Below are positions 1,050-50,402 of a DNA stretch of 64,000 nt, one piece after another. Made by a program: the position numbers and the translations under genes. How positions within the stretch are numbered: position 1 is the stretch's first letter; each line of letters starts with the position of its first letter. A model generated the notes under the pieces. That model was not told the DNA's origin, did not search any database, and was given only the letters and a program-made list of their open reading frames with translations. The stretch is from Acinetobacter sp. XH1741 (GTDB lineage Bacteria > Pseudomonadota > Gammaproteobacteria > Pseudomonadales > Moraxellaceae), in contig NZ_CP157428.1 in NCBI RefSeq assembly GCF_041021895.1, positions 744,001 through 808,000 of the forward strand, given 5' to 3'.

Positions 1050-1631
1050 TTATAGCGCACTTTTTAAATTCTTTTGATGATGTTTAATAGATCGAGCATA
1101 TTTTTTTGCTTTGTGACGTGTCCAGAAACTTCTCTCATAACCAGTTGGCCCAACATTATAATAAGCCGTGGCTTTGAACCAACTATCTGCGGTTTGATAG
1201 TAATGATTTAAAATATAAGCACCACATTGGATATTAGTAGATTCATCATATAAATTACCAGCGCAAGTTTGCTGCCAATAGCTTGGAATAATTTGAGTTA
1301 GTCCAACAGCTCCAGTTGGAGAACGGGCATTACTATTGTAGTTAGACTCTTGTCTGATGACTGCCGCGAGTAAAAGTGGAGGAACATTATATTTGTCAGC
1401 ACTTTGGATAATCAGTGGAGATAATCGATTCGCTGTACTCGGTGGAACGGAATAAGCTTTTTGTAAACCAGATGAGAGCTTATTTGAACGCCAAGAAAAT
1501 GAGCCGCTATTGGGACCTAAGCTTGTGCATCCCGTCATTATTGTCATTAAGGCAATAATAAAAAATTTGAGACTAAAGATGTGTAATTGTGTTGGTTCAA
1601 AACGATTTTGGGTTAAAGATGGGATAAGCAA
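1050..1631 (-). CDS. Lytic transglycosylase (SLT domain) lipoprotein
   Basis: A predicted peptidoglycan lytic transglycosylase of about 193 residues. A hydrophobic N-terminal segment ends in a lipobox-like MTGC (Cys about 35), which suggests an outer-membrane lipoprotein. The SLT fold follows: the catalytic Glu is in RQESNYN (about E95), then GAVGLTQIIP, and AYYNVGPTGY near the end, all standard for the MltE/EmtA-Slt-C class. The start is uncertain: the longest frame opens with TTG at 1631 and no good ribosome site is seen, while the first ATG would cut into the signal peptide. Known role of the family is cleavage of the MurNAc-GlcNAc bond with 1,6-anhydro product formation; the physiological role here is not visible from context. 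Confidence 0.8.
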   Translation of the reverse strand: MLIPSLTQNRFEPTQLHIFSLKFFIIALMTIMTGCTSLGPNSGSFSWRSNKLSSGLQKAYSVPPSTANRLSPLIIQSADKYNVPPLLLAAVIRQESNYNSNARSPTGAVGLTQIIPSYWQQTCAGNLYDESTNIQCGAYILNHYYQTADSWFKATAYYNVGPTGYERSFWTRHKAKKYARSIKHHQKNLKSAL

Positions 1632-1750: not shown

Positions 1751-1872
1751 TGAAAAAACCCCGACATCCTGTCGAGGTTCCTTCGTATTCAGCTTTATGT
1801 AGCTAACTCCTGTCAACTACCGCTTCCTGCGTTCTTATTCTTCTTCAATGAGACATCCTGTCTCTCTATGAT
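1751..1872 (-). ncRNA. Candidate Rsm/Csr-type small RNA (CsrA/RsmA sponge)
   Basis: Read on the minus strand, this stretch holds five GGA motifs, each preceded by purine-rich CA or AA. GAGACAGGAUGUCUC is a perfect 6-bp hairpin with GGA in the loop (1850-1864). CGCAGGAAGCG is a short hairpin (1821-1831). GUUGACAGGAGUUAGC is a 6-bp hairpin with two G-U pairs and an AGGA loop (1802-1817). A linker ACGAAGGAACC follows (1776-1786), then a terminator hairpin with a GGA loop (1759-1777) and a U run. The ACAGGAUGU core closely matches the known CsrA-binding consensus. Predicted length is about 120 nt, in the range of RsmY/RsmZ. A CATAAT -10 lies at 1879-1884 and a GacA-like box lies upstream. The role (titrating CsrA) is inference; no sequence homologue was searched. 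Confidence 0.72.
1753..1777 (-). terminator. Intrinsic terminator of the candidate Rsm RNA, GGA in the loop
   Basis: On the minus strand an 8-bp stem CCTCGACA/TGTCGGGG (one G-U pair) closes a GGA loop and is followed by TTTTTT. The plus strand has no T run after the hairpin, which fixes the direction of transcription. Confidence 0.85.
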
Positions 1873-1926
1873 TCATATATTATGAAAAAATACTAAAGCT
1901 GAATATCCGCAAATTACCGCAAGTTT

Positions 1927-1944
1927 TGTAGGTTTTTACTTACA
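1927..1944 (-). promoter_or_regulatory. GacA-type upstream box
   Basis: Minus strand TGTAAG-TAAAAA-CCTACA differs by one base from the GacA activating sequence TGTAAG-N6-CTTACA known from gamma-proteobacterial rsm/csr RNA promoters. Its centre is about 64 bases upstream of the predicted RNA start near 1872. The promoter has a poor -35 region (GATATT), as expected for an activator-dependent promoter. Confidence 0.65.
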
Positions 1945-49766: not shown

Positions 49767-50402
49767 TTACGGCTTGATCAGACCATAACGAATCGCAAGA
49801 TGTGTTAGTTTTACATCACTATCAATACCTAACTTTTCAAAAATACGATAACGGTAAGTATTTACAGTTTTCACACTTACAAAAAGTTTATCGGCAATTT
49901 CTTGTGCGCTAATACAATTTACGACCATCATCGCAACTTGCATTTCCCGTTCCGATAAAGAATCAAAAGGGGACTGTTGAGTGTCAGATAAATAAGAGCT
50001 TGCCAGTTGCTCTGCAATATCAGCACTAAAATATTTACCACCTTGCATGACTTTATTAATTGCACGAACCATCTCGGCAATTGGTGCACCCTTGGTGATA
50101 TAGCCTTTTGCTCCAGCTTTTAACAATAAAGACGGATAAGGCTCTTCTGCAAGGCCGCTCACAGCAATCACTTTAGTCTCTGGAGCTGTTTGTAGTAAAC
50201 GACGAGTTGTTTCTACTCCACCGATGCCCGGCATATTGACATCAAGTAGTACGACTTGCGGATGTTGCTGGCGAACGATAGCAATTGCTTCCTCCCCAGA
50301 TTCGGCTTGTCCAATTACCTCAACATCTGCATGATCTTCTAACATACGGCATATACCCGTACGTACCAGTTCATGGTCATCGACAACTAAAACTGTAATC
50401 AA
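49767..50402 (-). CDS. gacA: GacA/UvrY response regulator
   Basis: A 211-residue regulator. The receiver domain opens ITVLVVDDHELVRTG; the phosphoacceptor aspartate is in VVLLDVNMPGIGG; GAKGYITKGA is the usual GacA loop; and a LuxR-type helix-turn-helix follows (about 145-205, ISAQEIADKLFVSVKTVNTYRYR). The start is placed at TTG 50402, because a perfect AGGAGG (50408-50413) lies five bases upstream and the protein then aligns with UvrY/GacA from its first residues. The family's best-known targets are Rsm/Csr small RNAs, and a candidate target with a GacA box is in this window at 1751-1944. Confidence 0.93.
   Translation of the reverse strand: MITVLVVDDHELVRTGICRMLEDHADVEVIGQAESGEEAIAIVRQQHPQVVLLDVNMPGIGGVETTRRLLQTAPETKVIAVSGLAEEPYPSLLLKAGAKGYITKGAPIAEMVRAINKVMQGGKYFSADIAEQLASSYLSDTQQSPFDSLSEREMQVAMMVVNCISAQEIADKLFVSVKTVNTYRYRIFEKLGIDSDVKLTHLAIRYGLIKP

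Follow-up and report, generated by a model that had tools for sequence, protein, structure and literature searches.

Small RNAs of the RsmY/RsmZ kind carry GGA motifs in the loops of their hairpins and are controlled by the Gac system, and RsmX of Pseudomonas has a terminator of its own. Pseudomonas RsmX (rsmX-1/rsmX-2) is ∼110–120 nt long, contains GGA motifs, is preceded by a GacA upstream activating sequence and has paralogues that arose by duplication, sometimes in tandem (PMC7911923); in these features it resembles the locus described here.

In Acinetobacter baumannii, GacS/GacA is reported to control 674 genes (PMC5295007), and promoter activity of the sRNA Aar is 1.4-fold lower in a gacS mutant (PMC11472050). 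The csrA gene is described as essential on rich medium (PMC12802169), although a csrA deletion mutant of strain ATCC 19606 has also been described (PMC8567240). For the RNAs expected to join GacS/GacA and csrA, genome inspection is the only source given: RsmX, RsmY and RsmZ of A. baumannii are listed as found in this way and uncharacterised (PMC7366521, citing Kulkarni et al. 2006). In A. baylyi ADP1, two RsmA-regulating sRNAs of 119 and 139 nt have been predicted in the ACIAD0018/0019 and ACIAD2750/2751 intervals, others having been predicted earlier (PMC5568370). The kind of feature considered below is known and has already been predicted for the genus. To this the present analysis adds the locus, the family to which it belongs, a structure model, the promoter that its members have in common and a view of how large the set is.

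The initial annotation of the locus knew of no established Acinetobacter Rsm RNA at this site. This holds for experiment alone: a search of the open-licence literature did not turn up any experimental work on an Rsm RNA of Acinetobacter, and a term search of open A. baumannii regulation papers met 'Rsm' only in one reference title, whereas predictions do exist (PMC5568370 and PMC7366521).

A predicted RNA gene with four GGA hairpin loops

The window, i.e. the whole 64,000-nucleotide stretch that was analysed, contains on its minus strand a unit of 123 nt (positions 1871–1749, sequence read directly) that is very probably a Gac-controlled gene for a small non-coding RNA of the Csr/Rsm sponge type. 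The prediction of an sRNA of this type at 1749–1871 draws on its folding, its match to a covariance model (R1) and covariation among relatives. RNA of positions 1872–1749 folds with −40.9 kcal/mol, compared with a mean of −21.7 kcal/mol for shuffled sequences (z = −6.3; 0 of 200 shuffles as low), and no reading frame of ≥40 residues starting with ATG, GTG or TTG overlaps the unit. Of 12,776 segments, each 124 nt long and taken every 10 nt on both strands, 18 contained at least five GGA motifs, the unit's own segments included.

The anatomy of the gene can be read from its letters. GGA occurs on the minus strand at 1858–1856, 1827–1825, 1810–1808, 1781–1779 and 1769–1767. The first of these lies in the loop of hairpin 1 (1850–1864, GAGAC-AGGAU-GUCUC), the second lies in hairpin 2 (1821–1831, CGC-AGGAA-GCG) and the third in hairpin 3 (1799–1820, GUAGUUGAC-AGGA-GUUAGCUAC), whereas that at 1769–1767 lies in the loop of an intrinsic terminator (1752–1783) with a T run at 1758–1753. 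A terminator with a GGA loop had been claimed in the initial annotation, and direct reading of the minus strand bears this out. Two of the four GGA hairpin loops are ACAGGAUGU, which we take to resemble the best CsrA site. The fifth GGA (1781–1779) is situated at the base of the terminator stem, not in a loop, and occurs at that position in three of 55 aligned relatives, the window copy among them. Thus, all five motifs of the initial annotation are there, but only four of them are conserved, each within the loop of a hairpin. With a predicted promoter and a terminator of its own, the unit has, by its sequence, the form of a free-standing gene.

The promoter and the GacA-type box

Upstream of the unit, at 1944–1927 of the minus strand, the letters TGTAAG-TAAAAA-CCTACA were read directly. 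This palindrome corresponds to the pattern TGTAAG-N6-CCTACA of a GacA-type box (upstream activating palindrome), an assignment made by comparison with the GacA consensus. The more general pattern TGTANGN6CNTACA has this one match in the 64-kb window, where 0.03 would be expected, and the box keeps a constant offset in relatives. A predicted −10 element, TAATAT, lies at 1877–1882 (minus strand), 62–67 positions after the start of the box and at a fixed distance from it; T62, A63 and T67 are conserved at 94–95% in 87 distinct units. From the −10 element and its fixed spacing to the box, the predicted start of transcription is better put at ∼1871–1869, with the box ∼66 bp upstream; the start given in the initial annotation is revised accordingly. 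Its statement that the −35 region is poor agrees with our count: when the best of 12 offsets is taken for each of the 87 distinct units, five have TTGACA with at most one mismatch.

Between the box and the −10 element, at 1903–1921 of the minus strand (positions 23–41 after the box start in the 87 distinct units), there is a second conserved promoter element with the consensus TTGCGG..ATT.GCG.AT, which is possibly the site of a second regulator. The element is found family-wide, and a similar sequence, GGCGAATA, is present in the unit at locus L112 discussed below.

Full-length units from loci that had not seeded the profile search described below carried the box in 47 of 48 cases, and those from seed loci in 40 of 42, with at most one mismatch to TGTANGN6CNTACA and at the identical offset. 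The former count leans towards box-bearing units, because the box is the first part of the profile and only hits over its full length were admitted; on the other hand, the loci came from a BLAST search whose query was mostly RNA. The two units without a box are the second copies in loci L022 and L025 of relatives, and in each of them two loops read GAA where GGA would stand. Genome-wide, the box at ≤1 mismatch was not enriched (60 sites, compared with 78 for a reversed control).

Partner proteins

Both csrA and gacA are present in the genome. There is one copy of csrA, which scores 117.8 bits where the cut-off is 73, and by our own reading of the ORF its product has Leu4 and Arg44, RNA-binding residues of CsrA. 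The gacA orthologue, the presumed activator, is encoded in the window itself (49767–50399, minus strand); its best NCBIfam match is NF007018 (UvrY/SirA/GacA), with 265.6 bits (E 3e-79), just below the curated cut-off of 280. It adjoins an ORF of 522 aa with a histidine-kinase match, and a gacA gene beside a kinase gene is the arrangement described for A. baumannii (PMC5295007), which makes A. baumannii the probable source of the window. A BarA/GacS-like kinase in the genome reaches 565 of 890 bits, below the curated cut-off.

As an alternative, the sponge RNA could be genuine and its box be bound not by GacA but by another regulator of the NarL/LuxR type. Four other proteins with a NarL/LuxR-type DNA-binding domain are found in the genome, and the box was compared with the presumed consensus only. 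We nevertheless regard this explanation as unlikely, given that the box is of what we take to be the known GacA type (compare the upstream activating sequence of Pseudomonas; PMC7911923) and that gacA was kept, as one match per genome at E ≤ 1e-20, in 20 of 20 genomes tested. These 20 included all four genomes in which the RNA model found no match at E ≤ 1e-4. A joint loss of the RNA and gacA in small genomes was considered and rejected on this ground; the RNA and its presumed regulator have not been lost together.

Paralogues and gene neighbourhood

The initial annotation had proposed a search for paralogous copies. We searched the genome of origin (3.996 Mb in 4 contigs), and the best hit, the window copy, was followed by four places matching the terminator region, all four of which could be read as complete units; paralogy within the genome is thus plain. 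Three of the paralogues stand in a row within ∼2.1 kb (C1:640.9–643.0 kb) and one is at 297 kb. Each repeats the layout of the window copy: a GacA-like palindrome, which at 297 kb has one mismatch, stands ahead of hairpins with GGA, and the unit is closed by an intrinsic terminator that has GGA in its loop. Close to the tandem cluster there is also a match to C4 antisense RNA (L009:4234–4320, C1:643733–643819; 57 bits, gathering threshold 45).

The paralogues were first found through their terminators, and bare terminators score 33–41 bits with the covariance model, as might be expected of a repeated terminator or a mobile repeat without a function of its own. That explanation is hardly conceivable, since the similarity spans the box, the promoter and the hairpins, and is accompanied by compensatory changes and conserved synteny.

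Downstream of the window copy, ∼120 nt away and on the same strand, lies a lytic transglycosylase-like gene (1050–1631, minus strand; weak NCBIfam matches, all below the cut-offs) that might be a partner for read-through. Window-type copies were found in A. calcoaceticus, A. pittii, A. lactucae, A. nosocomialis and A. seifertii (nine loci; the genome of origin, or one very close to it, may be missing from this list). The transglycosylase gene adjoins the RNA in all nine, and a WrbA-like gene is on the other side in eight, the ninth stretch (L088) ending before that position. In eight more distant loci (L021, L022, L025, L026 and L031–L034) both the RNA and the transglycosylase-like gene are present twice, side by side. 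Such joint duplication is a visible route to new sponge copies.

This linkage, together with the doubling, could indicate that the unit acts in cis on the transglycosylase gene, as its 5′ leader or as an attenuator, with bound CsrA deciding on read-through of the terminator. However, the terminator is strong, and the same anatomy recurs in four paralogues of the same genome, in each of which the next long ORF downstream runs in the opposite direction (ORFs were called mechanically, not taken from annotation). The RNA is accordingly not always placed before a transglycosylase gene; the converging ORFs imply that the paralogous units are not mRNA leaders, and a leader function of the window copy is very unlikely.

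Distribution of the RNA family

In BLAST searches, the sequence of the window copy was matched in 70 of 99 genomes of the same genus (E ≤ 1e-6). A profile built from 40 units, extending from box to terminator, gave 103 hits in the fetched loci, of which 90 were full-length; the remaining 13 were excluded as partial, being mostly terminator matches on the opposite strand and otherwise broken pieces in L054 and L049. After removal of relatives ≥90% identical, 55 of the 90 units were kept and aligned.

The covariance model matches 171 of 175 genomes of the genus at E ≤ 1e-4, the best match having E ≤ 3e-8 in 170 of them. Within the window it scores 108.4 bits at 1869–1745, the next best hit having 23 bits; the window copy is itself among the 55 sequences of the model. 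Matches per genome have a median of 6 and a maximum of 14, some of the weak ones being perhaps bare terminators. These counts at E ≤ 1e-4 may be too low, with at most 19 candidates per genome scored and stricter filters applied; near the threshold they are uncertain and may also be too high, because bare terminators reach 33–41 bits.

In other genera of the family, E-values among the matches listed ranged from 6e-5 to 0.01. We inspected 15 weak hits (33–41 bits), of which two came from Acinetobacter genomes without a match (G050 and G026) and the remaining 13 from other genera. Fourteen contain no or one GGA and one (L136) contains four; a box with zero or one mismatch is absent from all 15. 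An extension of the family to other genera was rejected, as 14 of the 15 look like bare terminators. As far as this model can see, then, the RNA family appears to be specific to Acinetobacter. The exception, L136 (1501–1623; genome G213, another genus of the family), combines four GGA motifs with a terminator, no box being found upstream, and is possibly a distant Rsm-type RNA.

Conservation of structure

Conservation of the predicted structure was assessed on the alignment of 55 units. RNAalifold alone proposed 21 base pairs, 16 with compensatory changes. A structure of 29 pairs was drawn partly from the same alignment, by combining the RNAalifold result with our reading of the alignment, and was compared with shuffled alignments and with structures slid along the sequence; the shuffle counts are not probabilities. 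The 29 pairs are formed in 90.1% of cells, compared with 76.9% in shuffles and 42–48% for slid structures. Changes on both sides occur in 22 of the 29 pairs and in 234 cells, the shuffle mean being 77, and the covariation score is 0.454, compared with 0.209 in shuffles and ∼0.1 for slid structures.

The elements of the RNA share unequally in this support. In hairpin 1, four of five pairs show changes on both sides and the loop GGA is present in 52 of 55 units; the corresponding values are eight of nine pairs and 50 units for hairpin 3, and eight of 12 pairs and 54 units for the terminator, in which 99.4% of cells are paired. Hairpin 2 keeps its GGA in 49 of 55 units, but pairing was found in 53.5% of cells only. 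The scan for co-variation suggested in the initial annotation thus favours hairpins 1 and 3 and the terminator, hairpin 2 being weak. Compensated drift of the stems around a constant loop GGA is, to judge by the aligned sequences, what a CsrA decoy would show.

The A-rich linkers between the hairpins are also conserved, and more than one hundred sRNAs have been attributed to A. baumannii (PMC12802169), so that one might think of a GacA-controlled RNA acting mainly by base pairing (Hfq-type) instead of holding CsrA. Against this, the constancy of the loop GGA and the compensated drift of the stems form the signature of a protein decoy, and we consider a base-pairing role quite unlikely.

Other box-bearing units in the genome

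To a strict form of the box, TGTAVGN6CBTACA, nine places in the genome correspond, against ∼2.3 expected from base composition (P ∼6e-4). Four of these are the family units that suggested the pattern (the fifth family unit is missed by one mismatch), and the other five alone show no significant excess; the case for further sRNA classes therefore has to come from their own conservation. According to the ORF lists, one of the non-family boxes lies inside an ORF and four are intergenic. Three of the latter precede sRNA-like units with terminator hairpins, at loci L112, L110 and L111, and the fourth is at L113.

The L112 unit (L112:1501–1775, C1:1005108–1005382) represents a second putative box-driven class, ∼180 nt long, with eight GGA, one of them in the loop of a terminator-like hairpin. 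It was matched in 143 of 173 genomes of the genus. The box was within one base of its projected place in 27 loci (down to 68% identity) and perfect in 24; it had not been selected for, as in 21 of these loci the BLAST match by which the locus was located starts after the box. Each of the eight GGA positions is conserved (16–27 of 28 at the commonest column), and changes on both sides are seen in 11 of the 22 pairs predicted. The L110 unit (L110:1501–1729, C1:926916–927144) appears to represent a third class, ∼160 nt long, in which only three GGA are conserved and the terminator is preceded by a long invariant stretch; this stretch may serve a function other than holding CsrA. A match was found in 169 of 173 genomes with a query that also spans the L111 unit, and of 25 loci examined for the box, 24 had a perfect one, which in one case was shifted by 5 bases. 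The top hits for the L112 and L110 units comprised 29 and 19 loci, and the box counts are based on seven and five of these, respectively, plus 20 hand-picked weaker hits for each. Neither unit had an Rfam match at E ≤ 1.

At L111 (L111:1501–1740, C1:927364–927603) the box is followed by an A-rich unit with a terminator and two GGA only. Similarity spanning both the L110 and L111 units was listed for 16 genomes, our own included. The L111 unit was not counted as a copy of the window family, its score with the model being only 40.9 bits. At L113 (L113:1479–1750, C1:2941992–2942263) two GacA-like boxes, one with a mismatch, stand 22 bp apart before an AU-rich intergenic stretch with a strong hairpin and no clear T run.

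Judged by these comparisons, the window copy is one of five members in this genome of a multi-copy Acinetobacter RNA family, the box of which is common to at least two other predicted sRNA classes. With some hesitation, we lean towards the view that Acinetobacter has an enlarged Gac–Rsm network, in which three or more widespread sRNA classes, unrelated to each other, are driven by a single palindromic box: the RsmX-like RNAs of variable copy number, the single-copy 180-nt RNAs with eight GGA and the nearly universal 160-nt RNAs with three. If so, changes in the copy number of the sponge would tune CsrA.

Proposed mode of action

From the conserved box, loops and partner genes we infer that the unit is transcribed, that GacA binds and controls its promoter and that CsrA is bound and titrated by the RNA. 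When the GacS/GacA system is on, phosphorylated GacA would bind the box, centred near −66, and activate a weak sigma-70 promoter. The resulting 123-nt transcript would display its four GGA hairpin loops, to which CsrA dimers would bind and so be pulled off mRNAs; CsrA-controlled translation would change for as long as the Gac system is on. As the structure model and the box find loci of the family genus-wide, the link between Gac and CsrA becomes testable gene by gene.

Comparison with described Csr/Rsm RNAs

At the gathering threshold, the unit matches none of the Rfam families, and Rfam returned no match to a Csr/Rsm family in the window. Membership of RsmY (RF00195) was considered and rejected, as the unit scores 10.4 bits against a gathering threshold of 57, and relaxed thresholds did not help for any Csr/Rsm family; a paralogue from the same genome matches the whole RsmY model weakly (20.7 bits, E 0.097). 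The unit would consequently be a functional counterpart of RsmX/Y/Z and not one of the curated members of these families. The initial annotation had described it as a regulator of the RsmX/Y/Z type, and paralogues, covariation, the box and the presence of csrA and gacA all speak for this, the part that failed being a family match in Rfam at threshold. With the PrrB/RsmZ family and with RsmY the unit shares the GGA in the loops of its hairpins. It differs from Pseudomonas RsmX, in that the Acinetobacter family has no Rfam sequence-family match, the half-sites of its box are often TGTACG/CGTACA and up to 14 model matches, some of them maybe terminators, occur per genome.

Within the genus, the family has two length classes, ∼124 and 137 nt, to which the predicted ADP1 sRNAs of 119 and 139 nt are similar, and a family copy lies near 26 kb in the related genome G071, one of the ADP1 predictions being near 25 kb. 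This fit in published length and position suggests that the ADP1 sRNAs probably belong to the same family. The RsmX, RsmY and RsmZ predicted in A. baumannii come from the same group of organisms and have the same proposed role, and they may include the window locus. Compared with CsrB of E. coli, which has 18 sites (PMC7366521), an RNA of the Acinetobacter family has four to five. Numerous siblings in one genome have precedents in RsmZ1–7 and RsmY1–2 of Azotobacter vinelandii and in CsrB1–4 of Vibrio tasmaniensis (PMC7366521), to which the Acinetobacter set is likened by number.
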